Notes under the pieces: generated by a model
What the model saw: the letters and a program-made list of their open reading frames with translations, nothing else
Database searches by the model: none
Told to the model about the DNA's origin: nothing
Shown here: positions 14,645 through 58,008 of the stretch, piece by piece
Numbering within the stretch: the first letter of the stretch is position 1
How the letters are laid out: each line of letters opens with the position of its first letter
Assembly: GCF_032854445.1 (NCBI RefSeq)
Contig: NC_088303.1
Coordinates: forward strand, 15,321,501 to 15,385,500
From: Liolophura sinensis
Taxonomy: Eukaryota > Mollusca > Polyplacophora > Chitonida > Chitonidae
Direction of reading: 5' to 3'
DNA: 64,000 bases
Translations under genes and position numbers: made by a program

Positions 14645-17600
14645 GTATGATATGCACTAAACTTTTCATGTATATTAATAGCAGGCAAAAGGTGAACTTG
14701 CTGGTAGAGTTGGGATGTACATGTATACATTCGGTCATGTTAGGCTAAGCCTCAAAAGTTTGGATATTCTGAATAATTATAAATAAAATAATATTCAGAA
14801 TGAACTGAGACTTTTTCAGCGTTAACCTAAAAAGTGTCAGGCTATCGTTATGTATTTGTAATCATATGATCTTCTGTTAATCAAATATTTCCCTCAGATC
14901 TATCATTTAGATATTATTCATTTGATTGCTATATGTATTTATGGCCAATTTACAAATACGTGAAGTTATTTTATGCAAAGTACTTTGTGTTCAAATCCTC
15001 AGATTGATATGGATTAATCTGCAGATACAAAATGGGCAACAGCTGTTCTTGGCTGTTTCAGGTTCTAACTAATGTACATTGTAATTTAGATATGGATTTA
15101 TCTGTTTCAGTATCTGGAGCTGAGGTTCAAGTCTCGCTTTGTTCGCCTTTTTGGATCTGTTTTGGGAATCTGTGTAACAGTAAGTTTAAACTCGTTTGGC
15201 CGATCCAGTCAGGTTATAGGACTAGCTTGGCTAAGATTGTATAACTGGCTCAGCTAGCACAAAGCTGATGTAGTATTCAAGCTCATTTGGCTGAGTCTGG
15301 TTGTAGGACTGGCTTAGCAAAGTATGTAGGACTAGTTTGGCTAAGGTTGTAGAACTGGCTCAGCTAGCACAAAGCTGATGGAGTATTCAAGCTCATTTGG
15401 CTGAGTCTGGTTGTAGGACTGGCTTAGCAGAGTATGTAGGACTGGTTTGGCTAAGGTTGTAGAACTGGCTCAGCTAGCACAAAGCTGATGGAGTATTCAA
15501 GCTCATTTGGCTGAGTCTGGTTGTAGGACTGGCTTAGCAGAGTATGTAGGACTAGTTTGGCTAAGGTTGTAGAACTGGCTCTGCAACTCAGCTACCACAA
15601 AAGTTAGTACTCAAGCCCATTTGGCTGAGTTAGGATTAGCTTAGCTGCAATTGTAGGACTAGTCTGGCTAATGTTGTAGAACTGAGTCAGTTGAGTGGTT
15701 GTTAGGACTAGCTTAGCAGAGACTGTAGGACTACATGTAGCTTGGCTAAGGTAACCAGTGTGGAACAGGGTAATCACAAAACTAATATAGTACTCAAGCT
15801 CATTTGATTGACCGAGTTTGGTTGTAGCACTGGCTTAGCTGAGTAACATGCTGTTAGGACCAGCTTGGATAAAGCTCATTTGGCTGAGTCAGGCTGTTAG
15901 GATTAGCTTGTCTTTCTGTCTGACATTTAAAGTTCACTGAACATCTCTCATCATCTACACTACAAGGGGAGGAACCCAATCAAATGTTTGGCCATGTTTC
16001 TAAATATAGTGACTTAAAGATGGTTAAAGAGAAACCCAGGATAAAACTGAATGTTTGAGTTTAAGTGTAAATTATTATCCAGTTTAGGTGAAATGGAATA
16101 TCCAGACGCAGACAGCTGAAACTTAAAGAATATTCTTCATTTCCATATTCTCTTTACTGACAGTGCAGGCCTCAGGGCAATGAACATGACAAAACACGTC
16201 AGACTTAATCGTAGCTAAAACTTAATCTTAACTTTCTAATGACTTAGTTAAGACTGTTTTATAAAAAGGGACCACAAACATGCTGAACAAAATCTTAACT
16301 TACACTTAATGTACATGTAAAAGTCTTGCTCTGTAATAACGCTCAAGCTTTAGTGTGGTTCAGCAATAATTGTGGGAATAGAAATGAAACTATATTTAAA
16401 ATCTCAAAATTATTATTTTTACATGCAATATATCATTTTTTGTTTTAAACATACTATTAAGGTTTTAAGAATTTCACATGAAGATATGAAAGGTATGAGT
16501 TAAAATGACTACTGGTAGCTTTTTCTCCCACCATTGAAAATATGAATTAAACAAAAGATTCACAAAAAAATCCTACTAAAATTAAGAATCTAGAAGTCTA
16601 AATTCATGTTCATCATACTAGCAAATAAGCTATTATACATATATAATGTTGTAACAATATCACATACAGTGTTATGCAACAAAATATAATGTGTGTTCAA
16701 AACAATCAACATTTCTCCCCAGAAATATCACCTTAGTTAATTGCTACAAATTTCAAGTGGATAAAATTTTTTAAAATGCAACTCAAAATGCTTTCTGATA
16801 CTTTTATGTCTGTGAATGAAAGAAATTTGTATGAAAACTAAACTTCCTATTGGTAAACCATCATGTTTTTGTTCAGCTTACTCATAGTTTTAATATAACT
16901 TGAATATAGTTTGGGTCCCCAGCATGGCTTTTACTCCCCTTTTTATTCCCCTTCCAGAAGTAAAATAGCTCTAGATATGGCTCTGCTACATGACAAAGGG
17001 TAAAATTCCTCTTGCCATAAACCTGACTGCCATCATGTTAAGGGAAAAGTGCCCCTAACCATTAACCTGACTGCCATCATATTAAGGGAAAAATTCCTCT
17101 CACCATAAACTTGACTGCTATCATGTTAAGGGGAAAATGCCTCTAGCCATAAACCTGACTGCCATCATGTTAAGGGAAAAATTCCTCTTGCCATAAACCT
17201 GACTGCCATCATGTTAAGGGTAAAATTCCTCTCGCCATAAACCTGACTGCCATCATGTTAAGGGTAAAATGTCTCTAGCCATAAACCTGACTGCTATCAT
17301 GTTAAAAGTAAAATTCCTCTAGCCATAAACCTGACTGCCATCATGTTAAGGGAAAAATTCCTCTTGCCATAAACCTGACTGCCATCATGTTAAGGGAAAA
17401 ATGTCTCTAGCCATAAACCTGACTGCCATCATGTTAAGGGAAAAATTCCTCTCGCCATAAACCTGACTGCCAGCATGTCAAGGGAAAAATGCCTCTAGCC
17501 ATAAGCCTGACTGTCATCATGTTAAGGGTAAAATATCTCTAGCCATAAACCTGACTGTCATCTTGTTAAGGGAAAAATTCCTCTCGCCATAAACCTGACT

Positions 17601-20600
17601 GCCAGCATGTCAAGGGAAAAATGTCTCTAGCCATAAACCTGACTGCCATCGTGTTAAGGGAAAAATGTCTCTAGCCATAAACCTGACTGCCATCATGTCA
17701 ATGGAAAAGTGCCCCTAGCCATAAACCTGACTGCCATCATCCTCTAGCTATAAACCTGACTGCCATCATGTTAAGGGAAAAATGTCTCTAGCCATAAACC
17801 TGACTGCCATCATATTGAGGGTAAAATTCCTCTTGCCATAAACCTGACTGCCATCATGTCAAGGGAAAAGTGCCCCTAGCCATAAACCTGACTGCCATCA
17901 TGGTAAGGGTAAAATTCCTCTCGCCATAAACCTGACTGCCATCTTGTAAAGGGTAAAATTCCTCTAGCTATAAACCTGACTGCCAGCATGTTAAGGGTAA
18001 AATTCCTCTTACCATAAACCTGACTGCCATCATGTTAAGGGAAAAATATCTCTAGCCATAAACCTGACTGTCATCATGTTAAGGGAAAAATGTATCTAGC
18101 CATAAGCCTGACTGCCATTATGTCAAGGGAAAAGTGCCCCTAGCCATAAACCCGACTGCCATCATGGTAAGGGTAAAATTCCTCTTGCCATAAACCTGAC
18201 TGCCATCTTGTAAAGGGGAAAATTCCTCTAGCCATAAACCTGATTGCCATCATGTTATGGGTAAAATGTCTCTAGCCATAAACCTGACTGCCATCATGTT
18301 AAGGGTAAAATTCCTCTTGCCATAAACCTGACTGCCATCATGTTAGGGGTAAAAGTCTCTAGCCATAAACCTGACTGCCATCATGTTAAGGGAAAAATGT
18401 CTCAAGCCATAAACCTGACTGCCATCATGTTAAGGGTAAAATTCCTCTTGCCATAAACCTGACTGCCATCATCCTCTAGCCATAAACCTGACTGCCATCA
18501 TGTTAAGGGTAAAATTCCTCTTGCCATAAACCTGACTGCCATCATGTTAAGGGTAAAATTCCTCTTGCCATAAACCTGACTGCCATCATGTTAGGGGTAA
18601 AAGTCTCTAGCTATAAACCTGACTGTCATCATGTTAAGGGAAAAATGTCTCAAGCCATAAACCTGACTGCCATCATGTTAAGGGTAAAATTCCTCCAGCC
18701 ATAAACCTGACTGCCATCATCCTCTAGCCATAAACCTGACTGCCATCATGTTAAGGGTAAAATTCCTCTTGCCATAAACCTGACTGCCATCATGTTAAGG
18801 GAAAAATGTCTCTAGCCATAAACCTGACTGCCATCATGTTAAGGGAAAAATGTCTCTAGACATAAACCTGACTGCCATCATATTAAGGGAAAAATTCCTC
18901 TCGCCATAAACCTGACTGCCATTATGTCAAGGGAAAAGTGCCCCTAACCATAAACCTGACTGCCATCATGTTAAGGGTAAAATTCTTGAAATACCTAATC
19001 CATCTTTTTCATTTACATACATATTCATATATGAGTACACATTTATTCTCTGAAGTTTTATATATAATTTCATGAGTATTTGGATGGAGTATAATGTATG
19101 TAACAGAGAACTGTTTCTACAAAATTTAGTAAGTGAAATGAATGAAAGTAGAAATGACTTACAGAAACTTACAGTTGTCTTGTGTTACAGACATGGTACA
19201 GTGGTGTGGTTTTGTATGGTCCAGCCATAACACTGGAGGCAGGTAGGTGACCTTGAAATTATTGTAAAAGAACTACTTTCTACTATCATGTAAAGAAAGA
19301 AAGAAAATGTGTGTCTGCGAGCACTTGTTTGTTGGTTAAATAAATATGAATTACATGTACCATTCCCAAGCTGAAAAGATTTTTTTTCAAGCCAGCCATC
19401 ATATAGCACATTAGTAGCATTTGTGGCCATGTTTCATGTAGCAGTGAGCATCCACTAAGCCCTTTTGGGCTCAAATCCAAAGTATCAGTCTTCTTTACGA
19501 AAGGAAACACTTGAACCTGGATCGAGGCTGAAATGGTAGCAACCAGCCAACACGGCACAGACCCAGCAGGCGCAAGTTTATCCATCTGAAGCATATGTTT
19601 AACATTTTGTTTTGGATTGCAATTTTCAAGCTATGAAGCCCAACATTATAGTTGTTAAAAAGGCCCTGTTCCCTTTGTGGCAAAATGCCCCTTTGTGGCA
19701 AAATGGACTACAGTCAAGGTTGCGACCTTGGCACATGCACATTGGCAAGATACCATAGCTTGTCAGGTACTGTTTGTCTCTTTCAGTGACTGGCACCCCA
19801 ACATGGCTCTCCATTATCATCATGGCAGCTGCTGGCATTCTCTACACCAGTATCGTATGTATGCTGATTTGTTTGTTTATCTGATTGGTGTTTAACATTT
19901 ACTCAAGAAATTTTTCACTCACATAATAGGGGTAACCTTTTGGGATGGAGGAAACCAAAGTAAAGCACCAGCCTTTGCCAGGTACCTGACAAAGCTCCTC
20001 ACTTGTAGTCACAGCCAGAGTAGCAAGAGCTGGATTCCGACATTTGGATTGACCTCACTGATCAAGGGACAAGTGCTAAGAGACCAGGGGTAAAGATTGA
20101 TACTGAATCATTTTCTGTTTGATGTTCTTTCTTGTTTTTAATGTTTGCTTTCTGCTACCAATTATCCCAGGCACCAATCTGGTCCTCATTTGATTAAGAA
20201 AGCTCGACCATGAAAACATATTCATGAATCCTGGTCTCCTAAATTTCATTCCAAACTATATCACTGCTGGATGTTAATAATAGGAAAGATTATATGAAAT
20301 TTCACATGTGAGATGTAAGATTCTTCTGATTATTTGGATTCGTAACAAGTGTCTAAGCAATATGGACACCAAAGCTTGTGTTTCCAGCATCTTCAATTCA
20401 TTAGATTAGTCTTCTGTAGTATAGAAAACACAGGTGACGGTGAAGACAGTAAAGAGCATTGGACCAAATTCTGAAAGAGCTTAATATGATGAGATCGATT
20501 CATTAACAGCTATACAAAGTGTATAAAGGAGAATTAGATGTGTAAATGACTGTATCACCACTAGGAACGAGAAGTTTTGTCACACATGTGGAAAAGTTAG

Positions 20601-26600: not shown

Positions 26601-29600
26601 AGATGTATATGTTATATCTGTTACCTGTATGTGTTATGGCTATTAGATGTATATGTTATGTCTGTTACCTGTATGTGTTATGGCTATTAGATGTATATGT
26701 TATGGCTGTTACATGTATATGTTATGGCTGTTAGATGTATACAGAGTTGTTATTACATGTATACGTATATGGTATGCTGGTTTTATTATTTGCACGGTCA
26801 AGTAATCTTTTAGATACGGTTGTCTGTTTCCTTAAGAATAATTAACATATGGATAGAGTTTGCATCATCTTTGATATTGTGATATACAATGATGGGAGGT
26901 GCCGACTGTGGTATGATAGAGACATGATGTACATTTAAATTCTGGTCACAAAATTCATGTAATACTGTATTTATGATAGATTTTTATCTTTAAAAATTTA
27001 AAATCAATTTTTAAACACAGATGCTGGATGTGAGGGAGTTTCCTGATACCAAATCCAGCAGTGCACGCATATCCTTGACTGCATCTGTTATCGTACTTGA
27101 AGCATTTCGCCTCCATCGATAACCAAAACCATATCACATCTACTACCCTAATTCCTCAACTTTTTCACATATTAAAGTGCAGCTTTCAATGCAGTTTATG
27201 CACATTTTTAATTTATTTTGGAGACCAAGTTACATTGTTTGGATTGGCCAGTTTCTAGTCTTCACAAAAAGTATAATTCTATCAGCCTGCATAGAATGAT
27301 GCCTTCAGAATATGTTTCAATAAACAACCTTGCAAAACAGTGCCTTCCTGAGACATTGACTCTCTTGCGTCCATTTGATCATTTCTGCTGCCTTGATGAA
27401 AGTAAGTGGTGGAGAGTGCTCTCTGGTGTGATCTTACATTACGTTTGCCTTCCACCAATATGATAGATGTCACACGTTGCCTTCCACCAATACGATGGAT
27501 GTCACACGTTGTCTTCCACCAATACGACGGATGCCTTCCACCAATACGATGGATGTCATACGTTAGAAAGGTCTAACCATCATTGAACGCTTCTTGCCTT
27601 TCACCAATACGATGGATGTCATACATTGGAAAGGCCTAACCATCATTGAACGCTTCTTGCCTTCCACCAGTATGATGGATGTCACACACTGGAAATGTCT
27701 AACCATCATTGAACGCTTCTTGCCTTCCACCAGTTCGATGGATGTCACCCGTTGGAAAGGTCTAACCATCATTGAACACTTCTTGTCTTCCACCAGTACG
27801 ATGGATGTCACACATTGGAAAGGTCTAACCATCATTGAACGCTTCTTGCCTTCCACCAATACGATGGATGTCACACATTGGAGAGGTCTAACCATCATTA
27901 AACGCTTTTTGCCTTTCACCAGTATGATGGATGTCACACATTGGAAAGGTCTAACCATCATTGAACGCTGCTTGCCTTCCACCAGTACGATGGATGTCAC
28001 CCGTTCGAAAGGTCTAACCATCATTGAACGCTTCTTGCCTTCCACCAATATGATGGATGTCACACATTGGAAAGGTCTAACCATCACTGAGCGCTTCTTG
28101 CCTTCCACCAGTACGATGGATGTCACACATTGGAATGATCTAACCATCATTGAACGCTTCTTGCCTTCCACCAGTACTATAGATGTCACACGTTGGAAAG
28201 GTCTAACCATCATTGAACGCTTCTTGTCTTCCACCAATACGATGGATGTCACACATTGGAAAGGCCTAACCATCATTGAACTCTTCTTGCCTTCCACCAA
28301 TACGATGGATGTTACACATTGGAAAGGCCTAACCATCATTGAACGCTTCTTGCCTTCCACCAGTACGATGGATGTCACACATTGGAAAGGTCTAACCATC
28401 ATTGAACGATTCTTGCCTTCCACCAATACGATGGATGTCACACGTTGGAAAGGTCTAACCATCATTGGACGCTTCTTGTCTTCCACCAATTCGATGGATG
28501 TCACACATTGGAAAGGTCTGACCATCATTGAACGCTGCTTGCCTTCCACCAGTACGATGGATGTCACACACTGGAAAGGTCTAACCATCATTGAACGCTT
28601 CTTGCCTTCCACCAGTACGATAGATGTCACACATTGGAAAGGTCTAACCATCATTGAACGCTGCTTGCCTTCCACCAGTACGATGGATGTCACACATTGG
28701 AAAGGTCTAACCATCATTGAACGCTTCTTGCCTTCCTCCAATACGATGGATGTCACACATTGGAGAGGTCTAACCATCATTGAACGCTTCTTGCCTTTCA
28801 CCAATACGATGGATGTCACACATTGGAAAGGTCTAACCATCATTGAACGCTGCTTGCCGTCCACCAGTACGATGGATGTCACACATTGGAAAGGTCTAAC
28901 CATCATTGTCTGCCACCAATACGATGGATGTCATACGTTGGAAAGCTCTAACCTTCATTGAACACTTCTTGCCTTCCACCAGTATGGTGTGCCTCTGTAT
29001 TTGAGAGAGTTTGATCGGTTGATGGTTTCATTCATAAATCTGACAAGCAAATACTCCGGTTTCTGCCAAATTCTTGGTTATGCCATCAAACAACGATCAG
29101 TCACTCACACTGAATGTCGCCCTGTATTGTTTTCTGTTTGACAGGGTGCTATGGGTGGTGCCATGTGTGGATTTGGGCTGACATTGTGGATATCTATGGG
29201 AGGGGCGTTTTCTGATGGCATTCCGCAGACACCACGCTTGCCCTCCCCAGGAATTGACCACTGCCCTAACACTAACGTGACTAGCCTCATGCTGCAGACT
29301 GTCTCACAAGCCAACATCACCAATTCAACATCAGATATATATTCGTAAGTGTGCAAAGTACAGTGGAAATGTAAGTGTTTGGTTTTATGTGTCATTTAGA
29401 GGTACACAATAGACACATTGAAACAACATAAACCATGCTTGTCAACGCTCATTTTCTGTTTCTCCTTACAAAGTTTACACTCATTTTTTTTTACCCCTAG
29501 CCTGTAATTCATTTTAAACTATAGGTTTTGTAAGTTGTGTAGTATGTGACATTTTAGTATCTTAGGTTTTATGGTCTATTCATAATGATTGTTCGCATAC

Positions 29601-32600
29601 ACTTATAAAACTAATAATTGTCATATACTTTTTGCACCTGTTAAATACGGTGTTTTAGCATATTTTTTTTTTCAAGTGTTTTGTGTTGAAATGGCGTATA
29701 CTGCTTACATGTGCATATGCATTGTTGTGTAATATTAATGTACATCTACCACGTAGCACATAAAATTAAAGATTTACCACATAGAGCAAAACTATAGCAG
29801 TGTATTACACAATGGCAGTGTAATAGATGGCAAATGGTCAATCATAACAAATGAAATACAACTTCCTGTCAATTTACCTCAGGCAGGGTTTATTTAAACC
29901 CTACATGTAAATGCTTAAATACATAAAGTAGTTAACTACACTGTGTCTGGCATCATGCCTTGAGCAAAATTGGGTACAAAAACATTGCAAGGAGTACAGC
30001 TTATTATGAGTACAGCTTATTATGAGTACAGCTTATTATAATTACAGATGATTTTATAAACGCAAACCCTTTGTTTTCAGATCACCCTTGGTCAAGCTTT
30101 ACTCTTTGTCCTATATGTGGCTCTCAACAGTCGGGATTCTTACCACAGTCATTATTGGATACATACTCAGCCATGTTACAGGTGAGATGACATTGCAGGG
30201 TACATACTCAGCCATGTTACAGGTGAGATGACATTGTAGGGTACATACTCAGCCATGTTACAGGTGAGATGACTTTGTAGGGTACATACTCAGCCATGTT
30301 ACAGGTGACGTAACATTTGTAGGGTACATACTCAGCCATTTTACTGGTGAGATGACATTGTAGGGTACATACGTAGCCGTGTTTCAGGTGAGGTGACATT
30401 GTAGGGTACATACTTAGTCATGTTACAGGTAAGGTAACATTGTAGGGTACATACTCAGCCATGTTACTGGTGAGGCAACATTGTAGGGAACATACTCAGC
30501 CATGTTACTGGTGAGATGACATTGTAGGGAACATACTCAGCCATGTTACAGGTAAGGTTACAGTGTGAGGGGTACATATTCAGTCATGTCACAAGTAGTC
30601 ACATTGTGGGGGTACATATTCAGCCATTTTACACATGAATTCACGTTGTTGGGGTTCATATTCAGCCATGTTACAGGGGAGGTTACATTGTAAGGGTACC
30701 GTCAGTCATGTTACAGGTGAAGTCACATTGTTGGGGTTCATACTCAGCCATGTTACAGGGGAGGTTACATTGTAGGGGTACATATTCAGCCATGTTACAG
30801 GGGAGGTTACATTGTAGGGGTACAGTCAGTCATGTTACAGGTTAGGTTACATTGTATGGGTACATATATAGCCATGTTACAGGTGAGGTGACATTGTTGT
30901 AGTACATATATAGCCATGTTACAGGGGAGGTCACATTGTAGGGCTACATATTCAGTCACATTACAGGTGAGGTCACATTGTAGGGGTACATGTTCAATCA
31001 TGTTACAGGTGAGGTCGCATTGTGGGGTACATACTGAGCCATGTTACAGGTAAGGTCACATTAATAGGGTTCATATTCAGCCATGTTACAGGTGAGATGA
31101 CATTGTAGGGTACATACTCAGCCATGTTACAGGTGAGATGACTTTGTAGGGTACATACTCAGCCATGTTACAGGTGACGTAACATTTGTAGGGTACATAC
31201 TCAGCCATTTTACTGGTGAGATGACATTGTAGGGTACATACGTAGCCGTGTTTCAGGTGAGGTGACATTGTAGGGTACATACTTAGTCATGTTACAGGTA
31301 AGGTAACATTGTAGGGTACATACTCAGCCATGTTACTGGTGAGGCAACATTGTAGGGAACATACTCAGCCATGTTACTGGTGAGATGACATTGTAGGGAA
31401 CATACTCAGCCATGTTACAGGTAAGGTTACAGTGTGAGGGGTACATATTCAGTCATGTCACAAGTAGTCACATTGTGGGGGTACATATTCAGCCATTTTA
31501 CACATGAATTCACGTTGTTGGGGTTCATATTCAGCCATGTTACAGGGGAGGTTACATTGTAAGGGTACCGTCAGTCATGTTACAGGTGAAGTCACATTGT
31601 TGGGGTTCATACTCAGCCATGTTACAGGGGAGGTTACATTGTAGGGGTACATATTCAGCCATGTTACAGGGGAGGTTACATTGTAGGGGTACAGTCAGTC
31701 ATGTTACAGGTTAGGTTACATTGTATGGGTACATATATAGCCATGTTACAGGTGAGGTGACATTGTTGTAGTACATATATAGCCATGTTACAGGGGAGGT
31801 CACATTGTAGGGCTACATATTCAGTCACATTACAGGTGAGGTCACATTGTAGGGGTACATGTTCAATCATGTTACAGGTGAGGTCGCATTGTGGGGTACA
31901 TACTGAGCCATGTTACAGGTAAGGTCACATTAATAGGGTTCATATTCAGCCATGTTACAGGGGAGGTTACATTGCAAGGGTACCGTCAGTAATGTTACAG
32001 GTGAAGTCACATTGTAGGGGTTCATATTCAGCCATGTTACAGGGGAGGTTACATTGTAGGGGTACAGTCAGTCATGTTACAGGTTAGGTTACATTGTGGG
32101 GGTACATATATAGCCATGTTACAGGTGAGGTGACATTGTTGTAGTACATATATAGCCATGTTACAGGGGAGGTCACATTGTAGGGGTACATGTTCAATCA
32201 TGTTACAGGTGAGGTCGCATTGTGGGGTACATACGGAGCCATGTTACAGGTAAGGTCACATTAATAGGGTACATATTCAGCCATGTTACAGGTGAGGTTA
32301 GATTGTTGGGGTTCATATTCAAGCATGTTACAGGTGAGGTCACATTGTAGGGGTACATATTCAGCCATGTGTTGAGTAAGGTATTGGTGTAAGGCTCATA
32401 TTTTCTAGAGTAATTCAACAGTTGTTGAGATCGTTCTTCAGACTTTTGCACCCGAAACAAATCAGTTACATGATATTAGTCCCAAGTACCAGTTTAGAGG
32501 AAACAACGTGAATATGTTCACACCTGACCTGTCAATCAGTTTGGACTTTTTGTGAGATCAACCATTGCATTCAATTCAAATTTGGTAGCCTTTGTCTTGG

Positions 32601-45400: not shown

Positions 45401-48400
45401 ACCTTAAATTCACAAGTATTATGTCACATCACATATGATTCAATATCAACAGATTCCATCAAAAATACTACAGGTATCTGTAGGAATTATACGAGCTAGG
45501 AGATATAAAGAGATTTTGTGCATGTATCATTTAATTCAAGAATGACATACCCATATCCCAAAATATTTCACTTATATGGGGAGAGGAAATGAGTCAGACT
45601 AAAGCAAGCGTCAACCACTTTGAGATTAAATCCATCTTTTTACAAACAAAAGAATTATGTATCGGACATGCATTAATCAGTGTATAATTTAAACATACAC
45701 AGATTTCAGGCTGCCTGTTTACAAGATAATTAGCTTTCTTTGCTTCATTTGGTTTTTTTTTTGTTTTGTTTTTGTTTTTTGCATTGTGTTAAACAAATGT
45801 CAAGAGAGAACATTATTTGATACATTGAATGTCTGCCAAAAAAATAACTGTTACTGACTTATAGATATTGACGCCCTCCGCTGTATTTCCTTCTCAAGGT
45901 TCTGATGTTCCTGCAATTGATTGGACAGATCTTTGAACTGTTTCTGACTGACTTGCAGATCTTTTTGTCTCTGTTCTAATTCCCCATGCAACCTGAAAAC
46001 ACAACAAAAACTTTTAAAAGGCATAACAAATCAAACAGATGTTAAGTTAAAGATGTTTTGGATGTTATGGCATTCCATTTGGCATAAAACACTCAGAGTT
46101 GCCATCTTAAGACATGTACAGGCATATACTCTAACATTTATTGGCAACAAAGAGAATGTCTTGTATGAACTGGGGCCTTCACATCTGGCTCTCTGAATGC
46201 TGCCAATCCAATGCTAACCAATGTTGACCAATGATGGGTTGGCTATTTTTTTTTTGCACCTTCAAGTGAAGAGGTGTGCACCTGGTACCTGGTCAGTGTG
46301 TATGGATAGTGTTTTACTCCAGGCACTGAAGTTTCCTTTACCCCTAAACCGGACTGTCGGCAAAACAATGAAAAATATGTTGAACGCTGCATCAATTAAA
46401 TAAATAAATAAATTATTTTTGGATCACTAGAGATGAAAACCACTATTTACACATGGAGAAACAAACTGAATTCACCAATAATATGGACCCTCACCCCCCT
46501 CAAGGGTTTTATTATACTGATATGCTGAAGTGTCTGGAAAGTACAGTCACAGTCTGCTACATGTATACAAAGTTGCATTAAAATATTAGGATATAGAAGA
46601 GTGGCTGAAACTTGTAGTTGTTGAAACCTGTCTGTGTTGAGCATGGAAGTGTGCTCAAAAACTGTACTTGTTGAAACCTTCACTGTGAGAAGTATGGGAG
46701 TGTGGTTAGAAATTGTACTTGTTGAAACCTGCACTGTGAGGAGTATGGGAGCGTGGTTAGAAATTGTACTTGATGAAACCTGTACCGTGAGAAGTACGGG
46801 AGTGTGGAGAGAAATTGTACTTGTTGAAACCTCACTGTGAGGAGTAAGGGAGTGTGGTTAGAAATTGTACTTGTTGAAACCTGCACTGTGAGGAGTATGG
46901 GAGTGTGGCCAGAAATTGTTGAAACCTCAACTGTGAGGAGTATGGAAGTGTGGCTGGAAATTGCAGTTGTTGAAACCTGCACAATGAGGACAGAAACAAA
47001 AAGAAAGGAAAGACAAAAAAACCAGGGACACAAGGTAGAGCAGAAGTTATCAACAATAAAAACAGCTTTTAAAATACCAGTCACAGTGTTCACCAGACTA
47101 ACCTCTTAACTGCCTGTTCGTGGCTGGAAGTATTCTGTCGCAGCTGTGCATTCAGATTTTCAATGTCCTGATTTTTCACTCTGAAAAGAAATCCCCAAAA
47201 TATGGATAAAATAGAATTTATTTATTTATTTGATTGGTGTTTTATGCTGTACTCAAGACCATTTCACTTATATGACTGCGGCAACCATTATGGTGGAAGG
47301 AAACCGGGCAGAGCCCGGGGGAAACCCACGACCATTCGCAGGTTGCTGACAAGATAAAATACAAGAAATTTGTCACAACATAAAATACTTTATGTATGCA
47401 ATTTTACATTCTGTTATGTCAAGCCATAGAATCTGTTTTAAAAATCTATTTGACAAACAAATATTCAGCTATTTGCTTACAAAGTGTGATGTACGTTGTG
47501 GACATGTTTGTGTAAGACAACTGGTCTTTAGTGAATACAATACTGTGCAAACGGCCTTGTGAGTGTTGCTGATTGCCTAGCGCCTATAAACGCTACAAAC
47601 AATGAGGGTGAGGAATCTAGAAATTCCCATTTGACAGGGTTTCGTCCTGCACCTTGTGTGCCCGCAAATGAGTCATCCACTCCAACAAAGTACAGTACAA
47701 GCAGTCTAAGTACAGTCTGAGTGAGCAGTTGAGTTTCCTTACTTGACATTATCCTTAAACTGTTCCACCTCTAGGGTCAACATGCGCAAACTGGAAACAG
47801 ACTTCTCCATTTCTGCTGTTTTTTCTGTACAAAATACAAATATGTATCATAGACTAAATTTAACTGAGAGCATACATATATCTACTCAATCAAGATTAGA
47901 TGCAGGTACACGTGAGTTACCCTCACCATTTGGCACAGACCACCTTTATATGTACCTGGCATACAATTAGCATTGCATTAAATCTAGGCATCAAAACAGA
48001 CATTTGTTTACCAAATGAACTGGACGCACAAAATGTTCATAAATTTTAGAGTAGTGATAATATAAAAATTGGTAGTCATCAATAATGTGGACTGTGCTAC
48101 CCACTTTTGAGGATTGTGGAAGTTTGCCAGAAAATTGCAGCTACTGAATTTTTCTGCAATGTGAGGAGTATGAAAATGTAGAAGAAAATGGCAACTGTTG
48201 AAAACTTGGCAAATTATTTTATAAAACTGCACTGTGAGGAGTATGGAAGTGTGTCTAAAAATGCACTGTAACGAGCTTGCATGTGCGTCTGAAAACTGCA
48301 CTGTGACGAGCTTGCACATGCTTCTGAAAACGGCACTGTGACAAGCTTGCACGTGCTTCTGAAAACTGCACTGTGACGAGCTTGCACGTGCATCTGAAAA

Positions 48401-51400
48401 CTGCACTGTGACGAGCTTGCATGTGCTTCTGAAAACAGCACTGTGACAAGCTTGCACGTGTTTCTGAAAATGGCACTGTGACGAGCTTGCACGTGCTTCT
48501 GAAAACTGCACTGTGACGAGCTTGCACGTGCGTCTGAAAACTGCACTGTGGCAAGCTTGCACGTGCTTCTGAAAACTGCACTGTGACGAGCTTGCACATG
48601 CGTCTGAAAATTGCACTGGGACGAGCTTGCATGTGCGTCTGAAAACGGCACTGTGACAAGCTTGCACGTGCTTCTGAAAACGGCACTGTGACAAGCTTGC
48701 ACGTGCTTCTGAAAACTGCACTGTGACGAGCTTGCACGTGCGTCTGAAAACTGCACTGTGACGAGCTTGCATGTGCGTCTGAAAACGGCACTGTGACAAG
48801 CTTGCACGTGCTTCTGAAAACGGCACTATGACAAGCATGGAAGTGTGTCTGAAAATATCAAAAACATGATGACAAACACAACCCTACGGTCAAGTGCTTG
48901 CTGCAGCTCTTCACACCGCCTGATCAATTCCTCCGTCTGCTCTCTGGAGGACTCTTCTGAGTGCTTTGTGCGGTTTTCCATGTCTAATTTCTCAGTCTGT
49001 AGCTCTGCCAGTTTTGATTCATAAATCTGTGTGTCTGAAATTAAGACAAAACTGGGAATGTTTTTATGCATGGTTATAAAAGTAATAAAATACATTAATA
49101 TTCTATACTGTCAAATTTACTCCAAAGTAACTTATTGACAGGAGAATTTTTGTGTGCAAAATTGAACACATATCCAAGAGTGTTTTGGAGTCCCCAATTT
49201 GTTTGGAAGTTTGATTATTTTCACAAAAGTTTTAAGTGTTCATATTTAAAGTATCATTTTAAGGCCATTATATGCTTGTCAAAGTGCATTTTTACGTACC
49301 AAACTTGAACTACAGTATCTCAAGAGAAAGCACAGGTCTGAATTTAATGACAAGACAGCAGATTATGTATTAGTGACTCATTCAACAAGCAGCTTACTGA
49401 GTTTCTCCTTCTGTCTGAGCTCTGAAATCAGCTTGTCTGATGCCTTGTCCAGTACAGTCTTATACTCCAGCTGGACCAGGGTTTGTAATTCACTCAGACA
49501 TTTTCTCTGATGCTTTACCTCTGATAAAACAGATGGTAACCTGGACTTACAAATGTCTAACTTCATCCTACAAAACCAAGACAACAAACAAGAGTAAAAT
49601 ATCACATATACCTAATATGTTGTGTCTCAATATTCTTTCCAAAACAAGGAAGATGGTATGCGAAAAAATCTTTTCTGTCATTTCCATTTTGCCTGATTTA
49701 ACATCAGACCAGAACACCAACCTTACGTGGGAAGGTCTGCCAGCAACCTGCGGATGGTTGTGGGTTTCCACACCCGGTTTCACCGGTTTCTCGGTATGAA
49801 CGCCTCGCAAACATGCAATATGGTTGAAATATATCAGAGAAAGTCATAATGATAAGTAAGTAAGTAAGTCTATAACCAAGCTAATATGAGGAAACACAAA
49901 CTATTAGAAGTCAATTTGTTAAAAATGTCCACATTAGTGTGAAACAACACGAGAAAACATCATACGTTGTAATTAATCATTGTAAGTATACACCCACCGA
50001 AGCATTTCCTTTGTTCCAATAGTCTCTGACAGTTTCTGCTCAAGATCTTTGTTTGTGGAGCACATTTTTTTGATCATCTCTTCTCTGGACTTTACATCAG
50101 ATTGTAAAGTTGAAATGCTGAAATAACAATACGCAATGAGTTAAGTCAGGTAACTTTCTTTGATGATTTCTTTCTATGTGTATATGCATGTATATGTACA
50201 CTGATGTACATGTCAAGAAGAAGTCTGCAAACCCATTCTCTGCCTGGTCTGTTCTGATAGTAACATGTAATTTCATTTTTCTCTGCCTGGTCTATTATCA
50301 TAGTAACATGTAATTTCATCTTTCACTTGCACATTAGGGATAAGCACATATTCAGGCACACAAACATACATTAATAAGCATTTTCATTCTGAATCATCAA
50401 TCACAGACATCCATGTAAAAAGGAAAGCTCTGACTATTAAAAGACACTAGACCAAGCGTATACATGCAGCGATAAAGCATTCCATTCCATATGGATTTTT
50501 CTGTAAATAAGCTCATATGCTCCTCTACATTCTTAAACAAATAGGTAAATATTTTATATTCAAAAATTTGTCCATTTTTTTTTTCAGTCTCTTTTTCCAT
50601 GGGTTTTTTGCACCTTGAGTTTCAACAAAGTTACCATAAACAATTCATACATGAAATACATTTGGCAGCATTCGTGACAAAAGATTTAAATTTATAGTAG
50701 TTTCCATCCTGATAATGCTGGAGACAAATTAACAATAAGTAAACAGTCCCTTAAATGTTCAATTTCCAAGCACACACATGTGTATATATGACCATGCCAC
50801 AAAACAAACAATAAGATATAATATACAGCTCATATCATGCATATAGATGTCCATTTGTTAGCTTACACGCCATCTTTAGCAGTTAATGCCTGCCTCAGGT
50901 CTGTCTCTTGCTTCTCTAGGTCCTCCACCCTCTGCTTTAGGCCTCTCTCCCTCTCCACACTACCCCTGTAATGTTCCAGCTCATTTTCCACCTCTTTAAG
51001 CTTCTTTTCTAGAGCTAAAACAACAGAATTAACTTAACTTACTGTAATTCTTCAAACCTTTTCGCATATTTGCACGGTGTTTATTCAAGCATATGCTGAA
51101 GGCATTATCCTGTGTAGACTGATAAAATTACACTTTTGTGAAGCCCTTAAATTGGCCAATCCAACCAATGTAGTTTTGTCTCGAAAAATCAAATTAAAAC
51201 TTTGCATAAACTGCACTGAAAGATGCTGTTTCACATGCAAAAAGGTCGAGGAATTGGGTAGTTGTTTTAACAGTTTGTTTGTACAGCATCTGATATTATA
51301 AACATATAAGTATTTAAAATATTTAATCAATGCTCAGTCATTAATATTGTAACAGCCTTGTGCACATCCATTCTATTTATTTTCTTATTTTATTGGTGTT

Positions 51401-51939: not shown

Positions 51940-52478
51940 CCCAAAGAAACAACTCCAGGTCAACTTAAAAAAGCAGACAGTCAGGTACTGATCATGATGA
52001 CTGCTCATATTATTATATTTTATAGTATATTATTTCTGTCTTTATTCATTAGTTGTTTAATCTTATATCAAAAAAAATTTTCCATGAGTTTCTTTATCCG
52101 AATGGTGTTTAATGGGGGGACTCAAAAACTGTTCACTTCTGGGATGGTAGACTGTCAGTTTTATTTGTGAAGGAAGCCCAGGGGAAATTACTGGCTGATG
52201 AACTTTTTCATTCATGTGAAGTACAGATATGCACTCCATATCGGTAGAAGACAAGCACGATTTTAGATGAATGAACAATTATTAAGAGCAGTCCACTGTT
52301 AAATTCCCTGTCTATGGCCTGGATTGAATCCACACCTTGTGTGTCCTAGCAATTTATATTTCACTTATATGATGGCAGCAGGTTTAAGGAGTAGAGGAAT
52401 CCAGATTGGTCAGAGTACAATCTTTTCCTGAGTTACTGGCCAACTTCCCCACATGTGACATAAGTGCGTGTCATTGAT

Positions 52479-52933
52479 GGACACAGACCCCCATTACAAC
52501 TTCCGTTTTTCGGTAGGGACGATTGTAGTTCTGTGAATTTTAGGGTATAAAGTCTTTTTTTGCTCCCAGGCGTCCATTTTTGGTGCACAGGTGCATGCTT
52601 GGTATTAAAATGCTGGAAACTGTCTAAACTTTGAGGAGGTATGAGCTTTATTGATGAAAGTTTGAAACTCTGGGCGAGAGGACACAAGGTGTGAGGTAGT
52701 GATTAGGCTGCGAGTGACGTCCCCTTGGCGTTGCTAGGCACGCCTCCCAGCTGCCGGCATGGAAAGGTCCAGATTTTGACGGTCAACCTATGTCAAGATT
52801 TTTATGGCTTCTTTCTCACAGGCTGGGCCAGGTATGCACCAAAGCTTATTGGCCACGGAATGTTTGGGACTGAGCTACAGTGCTAGACGTTAACATTGTC
52901 GCTTATGGAAAATTAATGGGGGTCCGAGGCCTG
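52479..52933 (+). repeat. 455-bp terminal direct repeat, left copy
   Basis: Matches 56617-57071 at a constant offset of 4138 bp. The only difference I find is GTAGTGATTAGG here against GTAGTGATGAGG in the other copy. Ends carry the inverted core GACCCCCATTA/TAATGGGGGTC. Confidence 0.95.
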
Positions 52934-53189
52934 TACTGACGAAGTCACCAAAATGTGAAAAATGTCACTATGCGCTTAGATTTCGCAGCAGCCTGATAAT
53001 TTTTGGTGGGTATGTCTGTGATGTGTTTTGCATTGATTGAGCCGTTTTATAGCTTCTTGGGGCTATTTATTTTTTGAAAATATCCATTTTGATGAAAAAT
53101 CGGTAAAATGCTGTTCAGTGTAGGGTAACATGTGTATAGGCATCCTGAAATGAACAACATGCAACGTTCTAGTATTCCTACGCTTGAAA

Positions 53190-53578
53190 ATGGAGACGTT
53201 CAGAGCAGAAATTGCTGCAAAAATTGAAAGTTTCAGTGTTTATAACGAAAACGGAGCCTGTCGAGTGTGGACTGGACCATTGACGAGAGATGGTCGATAT
53301 GGCCTTGCCTCCTACAAAGACCCCGTCACACATCGATGGAAGAAGAAATACATCAGTAGACTTGTTTATATGGCCAGACAGGGGCTGTCACATTTAGATC
53401 CCAAGCTTGATTGTGCCACAACACACGCTGTGTAAATGTGGACCACACAAGCTTGGAACCGCATTGTGTTAACAATAACAGGCAGCGCTGCTGCAACGTA
53501 GGGCGCTGTCTCGGCCATGGGCAGTATGCAAGGTGCATGCTGCATTTAAGACTGAGCAGGTTGGTTTCCCCTCATTAA
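53190..53578 (+). pseudogene. His-Me finger (homing-endonuclease zinc-loop) ORF with a frameshift
   Basis: From ATG 53190 the first frame reads CRVWTGPLTRDGRYGLASYK (C.VW.G....GRYG) and SRLVYMARQG, then stops at 53433-53435. From 53411 the next frame continues LCHNTRCVNVDHTSLEPHCV and NNNRQRCC..GRCLGHGQYA to a stop at 53576-53578. Cys/His patterns of the form LCHN..CVN..H..LE....N..R..C are typical of the zinc-binding region of I-PpoI-like His-Me nucleases. Around the junction the expected '..SHLCHN' lacks its first residues, consistent with a deletion of about 10 bases. It lies inside the Mutator-like element. Confidence 0.8.
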
Positions 53579-53687
53579 AAATAATAAATAACAGATGTGT
53601 TTCAGATTTTGCTCAATTTCTGTCATCATTTTTTAATTTCTTTCACAAGCGACAACAGCAGTGACAAATTATATACAAAACTGGCGG

Positions 53688-55742
53688 CTACAAATATCTA
53701 GCGTATGTGTGATCTGTTGGGGTGTTGTCCAGTTGTCCCTTGGCATAGTCAGTTTTCTCTTCTGGATTTGAAAGCCTGTACTCAATGTGCTCTCGGAGTT
53801 TTCTGGCTGTATTGCGGAGTGATCTCCCCTTAACTGTCTGTCGCTTCTTATAAACCTTGTGGTACTGGTTCACCCTTTCAATCTGTTGTACTGTTTTCTC
53901 GCTCCTAGGTGAAATACTGGCGCCGACAGCTTGGAGTTTGGCAGCCGTGGACTTGTCCTGGCCATTGTTAAGTCTGTGGATTGTGGACGCCGCCCTTCCC
54001 TCCATATTTCTGCTGTAGTTTACATTCTTGGGCAAGGAGACGCTGAGTGATCTGTTGACAGCTTCGCACTTTTGAGTACTGGTGTTCATCCGGAGACTGG
54101 TGACGGCTGTCTCGCTCAACCTCATGTGCAGTACTTCGGTCAATAGTTTCCTGTCGTTGTCATCCATGTTGAAAGGGCAGAGTTTACTGGTGGATAAAAA
54201 CAGGGATCTCTCCCACCAGCTGCTGGTTTCCCCTCCGGAGCAAACCACACTGTTCCTGCGGCATTTGGAACAGTCCCCACCGTAACACCTGACCGTTGCA
54301 TCCACAACCCTGGGTAGGTAAGCTTTTATTTTCCTTATGTCACCAATGTGCTCAGACATAAGTTGAGAAAATATCAAGCTACACCTGGCCTTAACATCCT
54401 GACTCAACACCTTCTGTGCTTTCTTCCTGGCTTCCCTCGTTCGGCCCTGTCCTTCAAACATGGCATCGCTGAACTTAGCCTGGTTACATTTCTTGAACTG
54501 GGATCTACCAAGGTGCGTGGGGTCTGCTAACCGTTCGACCTCCCACAGTGGCTCGACCAGTCGGATGCCGTCCTCCACTCCCTTGGCTGACCTGGAGTCG
54601 CCGTCCGTGGTTACGTGCTTGGCTAAAACACCTTGCCTCGCCAATCCCTCGCCAATCTCGTTCCCCATATTATACTCGGACCAGGGGGCATGTGGGTTTG
54701 TGTTCGCTGTGCACTCCTCGTGTCCTCCAGGGCACTTTACTTGGAAGCCTTTTCCTCTCAGCCAGGACCCAGTCCAACACAATTTATTCTTCAGTGCTGC
54801 GGAGACAATGTATTGCTTGTCTGTTGATGTCTCCACTGCCAGGGAAATGGCTTGTGAAGCATTCTGGCCCGGTTTCTTGGGACTGGTTATGGTAATGCTG
54901 TTGTAGCGAGTGTCTGTGGCCAGATCTATTGTGCTGTCATCCTCTCCTCTTTGCCTTTTGTATGCCTTTACCTCTTCCACCTTATTTGCCATATCCTCTC
55001 TGTTCAGCTTTGCGATTGCAGATGCGACATGGTTTGCAGTGCGATGCATGTTCCTACGAGTGGCAGGCGGCACGTCCATTGCTGCAAATAGGAGTCTGGC
55101 TCGGGTGTTCCCCATTGGTGTGTCCTGGAGGCCTACTTGAAGAGCTCGGTTCACCGCTGCAGCTTTTTGGCCAGGTCTGTTGCATTCTACCTCTTTGTAG
55201 AATTTGTGGAAGCCAGATACATAGTCACAGTCACAGCACTTAAAACTGAACGCCCAGGCTAAACCCCACTTTTTCTCTGCAGCTATCTCTAACCTGGGCA
55301 GTGGACAGTGGTCCTTGGTCTCACTGTGCTCAAGCATAACTTTGTTCCATATACACACCATTTTCTGTATGTCTATGAGTCGCATTCCTTCAGCAGCCCA
55401 TTCCCGCTCATGGGTATCTCTGTCTGATCCAGCCGTGGAATCTACCTTGCACCGTCTTGGCCGCTGTATTCTCTTTGTGTCAGGCTGGTGTGTTCTTACA
55501 GCCTCCTGATTGGGCTGGAAATCTGTGTCCATCAAGGAACACCCAGGCAGAGGATTCAGCATGTCTGTAACTGCTGACAGGTTATTTGAGCGATCCTGGG
55601 CCTTTCCAGCTTGAAATCTAGACTGTTTCCTCTTTCTGTCTCCCTTCATGGTGTTTTGGGGTAGATTGTTTGCCTTGTTAACTGTCAGACTGACCAATAT
55701 AGGTGTACTTGGTGGCTGCCTGATTGGAAATGTTAAATTCAT
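53688..55742 (-). CDS. Mutator-like transposase, intact 684-aa ORF
   Basis: A single uninterrupted frame from ATG 55742 to TAG 53688. The N-terminal third is basic (KGDRKRKQSRFQ, a likely nuclear targeting segment) with a CCDCDY knuckle at 169-174. The transposase core has an Asp at D277 in the family context ATDTRYNS and a second at D380 in KHVTTDGDSRSAKGV. A Cys cluster CYGGDCSKC then C501 at 486-501 follows. These features match the large Mutator-like transposase domain found in many aquatic invertebrate genomes; the enzyme would cut and rejoin element ends. Coding GC is higher than in the flanking host DNA. No introns are needed. The third catalytic acid cannot be placed with confidence. 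Confidence 0.85.
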   Translation of the reverse strand: MNLTFPIRQPPSTPILVSLTVNKANNLPQNTMKGDRKRKQSRFQAGKAQDRSNNLSAVTDMLNPLPGCSLMDTDFQPNQEAVRTHQPDTKRIQRPRRCKVDSTAGSDRDTHEREWAAEGMRLIDIQKMVCIWNKVMLEHSETKDHCPLPRLEIAAEKKWGLAWAFSFKCCDCDYVSGFHKFYKEVECNRPGQKAAAVNRALQVGLQDTPMGNTRARLLFAAMDVPPATRRNMHRTANHVASAIAKLNREDMANKVEEVKAYKRQRGEDDSTIDLATDTRYNSITITSPKKPGQNASQAISLAVETSTDKQYIVSAALKNKLCWTGSWLRGKGFQVKCPGGHEECTANTNPHAPWSEYNMGNEIGEGLARQGVLAKHVTTDGDSRSAKGVEDGIRLVEPLWEVERLADPTHLGRSQFKKCNQAKFSDAMFEGQGRTREARKKAQKVLSQDVKARCSLIFSQLMSEHIGDIRKIKAYLPRVVDATVRCYGGDCSKCRRNSVVCSGGETSSWWERSLFLSTSKLCPFNMDDNDRKLLTEVLHMRLSETAVTSLRMNTSTQKCEAVNRSLSVSLPKNVNYSRNMEGRAASTIHRLNNGQDKSTAAKLQAVGASISPRSEKTVQQIERVNQYHKVYKKRQTVKGRSLRNTARKLREHIEYRLSNPEEKTDYAKGQLDNTPTDHTYARYL

Positions 55743-56616
55743 ATTTTTCCTCTCTGTTTATATGTTGTAGATGCCAATGTGACACCCTTTGATGTGACTG
55801 TGTAGAGTAATAACCTGCTGTGAGACAACAGCAATGGTGCAGGGAGGTTTTTGCATGGTGAGGTGGTCAGCCAATCAGCAGTCATGGGGGAGGAGGGCAG
55901 GGGGGGGGGATGCCTGGCTGGGTGGTCTTTTAAAGGGTTTCATCATGCTATTCAGTGGGGAACTGGGATACTAGTCTTTTCTTAAGTCCTGTCCACTAAA
56001 AAAGTGCCTGTGAGTAGGTCTTCATCACCTTGAGGCATTGTTCTTGCTTTGATTTTGGTCACAAATGATTGTTCCGAAATCGTGACAATCCGCTTTGATA
56101 CCCCCTACCACACTGTCAGTCAATTTTTTTCACATAGTTGCTGAAGTAAATGTCTTATATTTGGACATTTAATTGTCAGATAAATTGCCTATATTTTGAT
56201 GTATGCTTTGACACTTTTGGCTTGTAACTTTCATATTTAAAGCTGCTCTGAGTAGAAAAGTCTTCTTAAAAATGTATATTTCTCTAAATGGTTGCTTTTG
56301 AAAAGTCTAAAGTGCTCTGTCAATGTGATTTTTTTAACTTTTCTTGCAGATAAACATCTTGTCTTTCCAAAACAGTTGACCTGATGGAGATATCTTGAAC
56401 GGTATATGCACTGCAAAGCTTCAAAGTTTACCCTTCAGAGTTTTTTCACCCTGAAAAAAAGACACATGTCCAAGATGGGGGTACCCCAACTTGAATTCAT
56501 TCAACTCCAAAGTTTCTGCATGTATCAAGCCCTAATTTTGCCTGTGAGGTTCAGAAGTGTCAGGAATTGTGTGGTGCAAAAATTATTGATTTTGAAAAAA
56601 GGTGGCTGGTGTGATA

Positions 56617-57071
56617 GGACACAGACCCCCATTACAACTTCCGTTTTTCGGTAGGGACGATTGTAGTTCTGTGAATTTTAGGGTATAAAGTCTTTTTTTG
56701 CTCCCAGGCGTCCATTTTTGGTGCACAGGTGCATGCTTGGTATTAAAATGCTGGAAACTGTCTAAACTTTGAGGAGGTATGAGCTTTATTGATGAAAGTT
56801 TGAAACTCTGGGCGAGAGGACACAAGGTGTGAGGTAGTGATGAGGCTGCGAGTGACGTCCCCTTGGCGTTGCTAGGCACGCCTCCCAGCTGCCGGCATGG
56901 AAAGGTCCAGATTTTGACGGTCAACCTATGTCAAGATTTTTATGGCTTCTTTCTCACAGGCTGGGCCAGGTATGCACCAAAGCTTATTGGCCACGGAATG
57001 TTTGGGACTGAGCTACAGTGCTAGACGTTAACATTGTCGCTTATGGAAAATTAATGGGGGTCCGAGGCCTG
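56617..57071 (+). repeat. 455-bp terminal direct repeat, right copy
   Basis: See 52479-52933. On the minus strand it lies about 0.9 kb upstream of the transposase start codon, so it might supply the promoter. Confidence 0.95.
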
Positions 57072-57560
57072 ATACGTGGCTACTGGGCAGACAGTGGCCT
57101 TCAGCAAATTACATAACAGCAAACACCACCCCACTTTAAATGAAGCAGGTCAGAGAAAAGAAGCAAATGCATCCCTTGTGTGATTCTGATTTGTGACGCT
57201 GTATGCCTATATGCAAGAATAGTCCATCTAGATGTGCTATTTTGAAATTCTGACATTTATAGGAACAGTGAGTCCATCCCCACTTGTCAAAAAAACTGCC
57301 TCTGATTTCCAAACTCAGGACTCCATGGAACTGCATGATCTCAGTGAGGTCTACACTGACAGCACCCAAACATACCTGCCCTAAAAATTCAAGTTATGCT
57401 CATCTGTGATATGTCACTCTTTACGCTCGCTTTACATCCCTGCCACGGCTAGACAGAAGTCCTAACGAATGATATCCATAACACGTACAAACCGAAACAA
57501 GTTGACTTCACAAACACGATAATTAATCGTAATTATCTACAGGAACTGAACTTACTCTAC
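57072..57560. other. Gene-free stretch right of the element
   Basis: Short frames on both strands near 57136-57369 lack any recognisable domain. I find no UreF or LEKR1-like exon here. Confidence 0.4.
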
Positions 57561-57563
57561 GAT

Positions 57564-57678
57564 AGTTCAATTAAATTAATCGTTGAGGTCTATTTTCAAC
57601 AATTCCTTACATTTACTCGAGGCAGGTAAATATCAGAATTTGTTAAAAATAGACCTCAACGTTTTATTTAATTGAACT
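57564..57678. repeat. Imperfect inverted repeat (hairpin) upstream of UreF
   Basis: Arms of about 42 bp: 'agttcaattaaattaatcgt', 'tgaggtctattttcaacaat' on the left, mirrored by 'gttaaaaatagacctcaacg', 'ttttatttaattgaact' on the right, with a loop of about 30 bases. Three or four mismatches. It could be a small foldback element or a structural motif 330 bp upstream of the UreF start codon. Confidence 0.8.
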
Positions 57679-58008
57679 AGCGCTACGACATCACGACGAA
57701 CTTCGAGAAAAGAATTATGGCGTCTTTTTCCATTTACCAATGAAAATGAATCCTCCTGGTTTTTTGCTATCCTCCTGGTTTATTTTAAATGTTCAAGCCG
57801 AAGAGAGGTAGATTTTCTTCACAGAAAGGCTTGTTTCCTGAAGAAAATGGAAAAATCCCACCCTGAGCGCACCACACGTTTTGGCCTGTCTATTACCGCC
57901 ATCTTGAAACCAATGTAAACAACATCCGGGCACTGTGATGACACTGACGAGTAAAGGGGCGTAACCGAGTTGTTGACAACCTGACAGTTTCTCGGAGATA
58001 ATGGGAGG

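Follow-up and report, generated by a model that had tools for sequence, protein, structure and literature searches.

We examined a 64,000-nucleotide stretch of the Liolophura sinensis genome (609 Mb), G000:C9:15321501-15385500, referred to here as the window, and identified in it a DNA transposon with an intact transposase that, judged from its sequence, almost certainly belongs to KolobokP, a type that Kojima and Bao had already described in 2022 (PMC9587614). Two long terminal direct repeats (LTDRs) bracket a 3685-bp core, the internal region (INT), giving the layout LTDR-INT-LTDR. The initial annotation had put the element forward as a candidate for an undescribed mobile system; the system had been described. 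What the window copy adds to PMC9587614, as far as the available text goes, is not the kind of element but the order of events, as here the loss of the nuclease gene came earlier than the spread of the element. The features of the element, in window positions, are as follows.

52475-52478: left target-site duplication, TGAT, the same letters as at 57070-57073
52479-52931, + strand: left LTDR, 453 bp, with boundaries equal in 13 other full and 7 solo copies
52479-52496 and 52914-52931: imperfect 18-bp inverted ends of the left LTDR, GG...CC
52932-56616, + strand: INT, 3685 bp; the 13 other full copies share its limits, with lengths of 3675-3690 bp
53190-53435, + strand: broken His-Me finger open reading frame (ORF), 81 aa, with 10 bp deleted at 53411/53412 in comparison with intact relatives
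53408-53575, + strand: out-of-frame rest of the His-Me finger gene, aligning to residues 77-127 of an intact relative, with one TGA within (G000:C9:15374908-15375075)
53688-55742, - strand: intact DDD/E transposase, 684 aa, PF20700 'Mutator', with Kolobok-type motifs
56617-57069, + strand: right LTDR, 453 bp, one base apart from the left LTDR
57070-57073: right target-site duplication, TGAT, pairing with the left TGAT

The LTDR sequence starts with GGACACAGACCCCCATTA and finishes with TAATGGGGGTCCGAGGCC, which form an 18-bp imperfect inverted repeat, so the inverted ends reported earlier for each repeat are indeed present. The repeats had been given as 455 bp long with one base different; the single difference stands (1/453 bases), but the unit is 453 bp by the boundaries of the 13 other full copies, the longer count having arisen because 'TG' opens the core on one side and the TGAT duplication on the other. 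The GG...CC termini were found in all full and solo copies of the boundary alignment (13 other full, 7 solo) and in most of a further set of copies, in which L054, L088-L091 and truncated copies were unaligned at the right end. A core bounded by inner inverted repeats of its own was ruled out, since 14 full copies have equal core limits and the duplications lie outside the LTDRs. The repeats are, as had been suggested, themselves like short transposons and enclose a transposase core, and the whole is one mobile unit.

Solo and paired copies of the repeat, for which a search had been proposed, both occur in this genome. With up to 3 mismatches allowed, a 27-base pattern of the left end gave 1000 matches (556 forward, 444 reverse; 0 in the control), and we examined 100 places among the matches listed, all of them mismatch-free and all on C1-C3. 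Thirty-two of these paired up on the same strand at distances below 8 kb, giving 16 pairs, and the other 68 were single. Seven pairs were spaced by 4.11-4.14 kb, as in the full element, seven by 2.90-2.94 kb, one by 3.8 kb and one by 5.7 kb; the last (L050/L051) was ruled out as an element, as it consists of two right LTDRs whose flanks are identical. Two pairs were left out of the count of target duplications, L094/L095 with a partly aligned left LTDR and L106/L107 with a right LTDR that continues into another core start. The 47 single-repeat loci comprised 40 of the 68 listed singles (C1, C2), two more of these singles and five loci from among the best genome-search matches; 12 of the 47, without a full-length LTDR or with a right LTDR that had core alongside, were left out, and the solo sample is biased to well-kept left ends.

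Exact 4-bp target-site duplications flank 18 of the 24 full elements scored and 26 of the 35 solo LTDRs, compared with a mean of about 1.5 exact 4-bp matches per set (maximum 7) in shuffled flank pairs. L067 and L068, whose flanks are identical and which probably represent a single locus that was duplicated, were both counted as misses. Among the 44 exact duplications, A stood at position 1 in 36 and T at position 4 in 32, a lean towards A first and T last that differs from KolobokP as described, for which no strong target preference was reported (PMC9587614). The full copy L041 has an exact duplication at 5 bp, and the solos L033 (TACAA) and L036 (TGTAT) have an extra base ahead of the right duplication copy. 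A full element without target duplication, L023 (G000:C9:17439183-17443765), has a right flank starting with TGTACT, which resembles the core start.

The transposase ORF of 684 aa is intact, as initially annotated, and matched PF20700 in Pfam (E 1.5e-77). Its motifs include DPTH (407-410), C-x4-C-x2-C-x6-C (486-501) and CEAVN (559-563). A CCHC finger, C-x14-C-x3-H-x2-C, was read by eye from the translation, having been missed by the script because its pattern demanded four residues where three stand. Between the window copy and L038, a copy with an intact nuclease gene, 9 replacement and 22 silent changes were counted (dN 0.006, dS 0.051), which is as expected for a protein that would be under selective maintenance. 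Inside the nuclease-null branch of the window copy the transposase shows no clear constraint, on numbers too small for a judgement (5 replacement and 2 silent changes against L026; 2 and 3 against L028). Apart from the transposase and the small ORF, the element has ORFs of 148, 93 and 82 aa, of which two run antisense to the transposase gene.

KolobokP elements are described (PMC9587614) as having LTDRs around 450 or 660 bp long with terminal inverted repeats (TIRs) of their own of up to 18 bp, 5'-RR...YY-3' termini and 3-5-bp target duplications, with which the 453-bp LTDRs, the 18-bp imperfect TIR, the GG...CC ends and the mostly exact 4-bp duplications of the window family agree. Their DDD/E transposase has a C/DxxH motif, a CCHC finger that follows the first D and a Cys finger ahead of the last E, and an I-PpoI-like His-Me gene lies downstream on the opposite strand (PMC9587614). 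The transposase motifs are found here too, and the corresponding small gene is in the right place, broken in the window copy and intact in sister copies such as L038. Solo LTDRs, (LTDR-INT)n-LTDR multimers and non-autonomous families complete the published picture (PMC9587614), and we found 35 full-length solos, a four-unit array and the non-autonomous copies L041-L043. The known hosts belong to 7 animal phyla, with bivalves especially represented (PMC9587614). A limited literature search found no description of KolobokP other than PMC9587614.

The initial annotation had assigned the element to the Mutator type, and a Mutator (MuDR) element whose terminal repeats are, unusually, direct would fit the name of the Pfam family PF20700. 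MuDR target duplications are 8-11 bp long. Duplications, which had been anticipated in that range, do exist at the flanks, but at 4 bp: 44 of the 59 copies have exact 4-bp flanks, and none of the 24 full and none of the 35 solo copies has an exact 8-bp one (lengths 7 and 9-11 were unscored; L080 has an exact 7-bp match). In addition, the ends are GG..CC on a short 18-bp imperfect TIR rather than long terminal inverted repeats, and the zinc-finger pattern of the transposase is that of late Kolobok lineages (PMC9587614). A Mutator origin is thus very improbable, and the Pfam name 'Mutator' (PF20700) misleads.

The partner gene of the transposase had been noted as a His-Me ORF; a gene of homing-endonuclease type is indeed there, but the window copy is broken, at 81 aa. 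The 10-bp deletion takes out the codon of the catalytic His and causes a frameshift, and the window ORF stops ahead of the catalytic box; it gave nothing above the Pfam cut-off (best E 0.18). The intact version, a 127-aa protein, was identified in L038-L040. The L038 protein matched PF05551 (E 2.8e-8) and, weakly in sequence, the I-PpoI structure chains (best E 0.029), and the residues equivalent to I-PpoI S97, H98, H110, E114 and N119 are spaced as in I-PpoI (numbering per PMC9587614). A better conservation of the nuclease ORF than of the transposase in decayed copies, prompted by protein identities of 75% vs 96% at C11:28.78 Mb, was ruled out by DNA comparison, as both gene regions of L112 show about 98.8% DNA identity to L038; the low protein identity at C11:28.78 Mb fits frameshifts.

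The deletion is present in 11 of 11 near-identical full copies (the window element and L021-L030) and in L116. As it is missing from all 13 other aligned copies, including the distant non-autonomous L041-L043, it is derived. A match at C11:25.18 Mb, seen in the search only, likewise splits at residue 77. The ten other cores of the nuclease-null branch differ from the window core at between 0 and 14 of roughly 3685 bases, and exact target duplications of their own were found in 8 of the 11 nuclease-null elements. Since the deletion is common to near-identical copies at different sites, the loss preceded the spread, and comparison of the copies indicates that the window branch became numerous once its own nuclease was gone. 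Transposition thus did not require that nuclease in cis, and the nuclease may be dispensable. Help in trans is possible, since 32 of 149 matches in the genome search with the intact nuclease span all 127 residues without a stop, and intact copies could possibly supply the protein.

Some KolobokP families apparently encode no nuclease, and for these families decay after transposition could not be excluded (PMC9587614). The window subfamily differs from KolobokP as described there in that it lost the nuclease before amplifying. A limited literature search, including the available part of PMC9587614, found no published account of a nuclease-null branch amplifying after the loss.

To see how the two LTDRs of an element relate, we compared the variants in 25 two-LTDR elements. 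Thirty-six variants were shared by both LTDRs of at least 2 elements, 10 occurred in a single element but in both of its LTDRs, and 40 were private to a single LTDR, where some 'private' variants could occur in unsampled relatives; only 2 side-specific candidates occurred in more than one element. E098 has an identical LTDR pair that is 4 changes away from the nearest other LTDR (3 changes for E100). Some pairs diverge, E108 by 12, L041 by 8 and E096 by 8. From this concordance of variants, the left and right LTDRs of an element are not evolving as separate lineages. Any one of recombination, conversion and a one-LTDR intermediate would account for this, and the three are indistinguishable here. 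Solo-specific subfamilies were considered as a sign that solos move on their own: eleven variants occurred in 4 or more of the 39 solos and in none of the 51 full-element LTDRs, but mostly in diverged groups of which full elements are perhaps unsampled.

At C9:31.86 Mb, four transposase copies follow each other with an exact period of 4132 bp. The outer repeats of this array are flanked by ACCT/ACCT, and the inner junction that was read shares one repeat. Four units lie within one ACCT duplication, and a single insertion therefore expanded in place. The copies of this array are nuclease-intact, and none of the 11 nuclease-null loci is in an array in the 200 bp read per side and in the window itself, which is too few to test an effect of the nuclease. 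At C2:27.10 Mb (L107), in the non-autonomous family, the right LTDR continues into another core start, that is, a run of units; as it formed without an intact nuclease in cis, any effect of the nuclease would have to act in trans too. The notion that nuclease-null elements form no arrays was thus dropped, having no power behind it and L107 speaking against a cis effect. Two other loci have neighboring units: C12:29.09 Mb (L048), with two units 3746 bp apart next to an assembly gap and no shared LTDR seen, and C3:13.59 Mb, with two transposase copies about 3.1 kb apart, known from search matches only.

Tandem arrays of IS26-type bacterial pseudo-composite transposons share a repeat, as do the arrays here. 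Those transposons, named in PMC9587614, are also alike in having directly repeated mobile units around a core; unlike them, the window element has its transposase in the core, outside the repeat. The like-for-like terminal repeats within an element, the solo repeats and the array also recall LTR retrotransposons, and the element could be read as a non-autonomous one with a captured transposase, its LTRs being products of reverse transcription. It has, however, 18-bp inverted ends and GG..CC rather than TG..CA termini, a DNA transposase and a small gene on opposite strands, and no ORF of reverse-transcriptase or gag size apart from the transposase (with the 148-, 93- and 82-aa ORFs unsearched in Pfam). 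Silent changes moreover exceed replacement changes in the transposase between branches (window vs L038, as above). We regard a retrotransposon origin as extremely unlikely.

The copies spaced by 2.9 kb, L041-L043 (G000:C1:45.11 Mb, C1:52.37 Mb, C2:23.46 Mb), constitute a non-autonomous family without a transposase ORF. Their LTDRs show 91-93% identity to the window LTDRs; in pairwise comparison with L038, the LTDRs of L041 and L042 show 92-93% identity and their core regions about 48-74% by region. The LTDRs therefore look either exchanged between families or constrained. An accidental composite of two unrelated MITEs around a transposase gene, to which the abundance of the repeat (the 1000 left-end matches) and the 68 of 100 listed places that are unpaired would lend some color, has hardly any probability left given equal repeat-core-repeat limits at 14 loci of the window family, duplications beyond the outer ends and the same arrangement in the separate family L041-L043.

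Several points weigh against our reading of the window element as a KolobokP transposon that spread after losing its nuclease. Six of the 24 full elements and nine of the 35 solos lack an exact 4-bp duplication; one of these solos, L080, has flanks that instead match exactly over 7 bp (TGTTTAT). The empty site sought for the window copy was not found, as the scored flank matches (40/41 left, 40/106 right) never reach the junction, and no other flank match comes nearer than about 120 bp (left) or 140 bp (right) to it. Finally, loss of the nuclease in cis is no proof of its dispensability, with 32 of 149 matches intact.

Based on the KolobokP reading, the transposase would act on the inverted LTDR ends. 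When the outermost ends pair, the whole element would move and the 4-bp target duplication would arise, and a solo LTDR could in principle move as a non-autonomous unit because each LTDR has both inverted ends. Recombination between LTDRs would give rise to solos, to tandem arrays of the form (LTDR-INT)n-LTDR and to elements whose two LTDRs match; this recombination, or perhaps a one-LTDR intermediate, would keep both LTDRs alike.

It has been proposed that the nuclease induces unequal crossover and thereby multiplies the element, with experimental validation awaited (PMC9587614). Tentatively, and as something rather short of probable, we suggest that a KolobokP lineage gave up its own homing-type nuclease and then amplified, which would separate two modes of spread. 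If true, the transposase alone moves the element and the nuclease only drives array formation. A nuclease-null branch beside nuclease-intact sisters in one genome is a natural experiment on the crossover model.

Two other PF20700 transposase ORFs, L110 (G000:C5:13.50 Mb) and L111 (G000:C4:9.94 Mb), have 651 and 624 codons open, respectively. No direct repeats were detected in the 5.8 and 5.5 kb read around them and no DNA similarity to the window element, and they probably represent other transposon lineages of the same genome. Within the window, an inverted repeat with 57-bp arms (86%) adjoins the element at 57560-57682, and the stretch at 57220-57395 has many dispersed relatives in the genome. 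The window is rich in minisatellites, which lie at 16996-18985, 27532-28984, 30160-32370 and 48223-48855, with periods of 44, 63, 42 and 35, respectively. Both strands of the 63-bp array are open over about 447 codons, which is probably an effect of its period being divisible by three.

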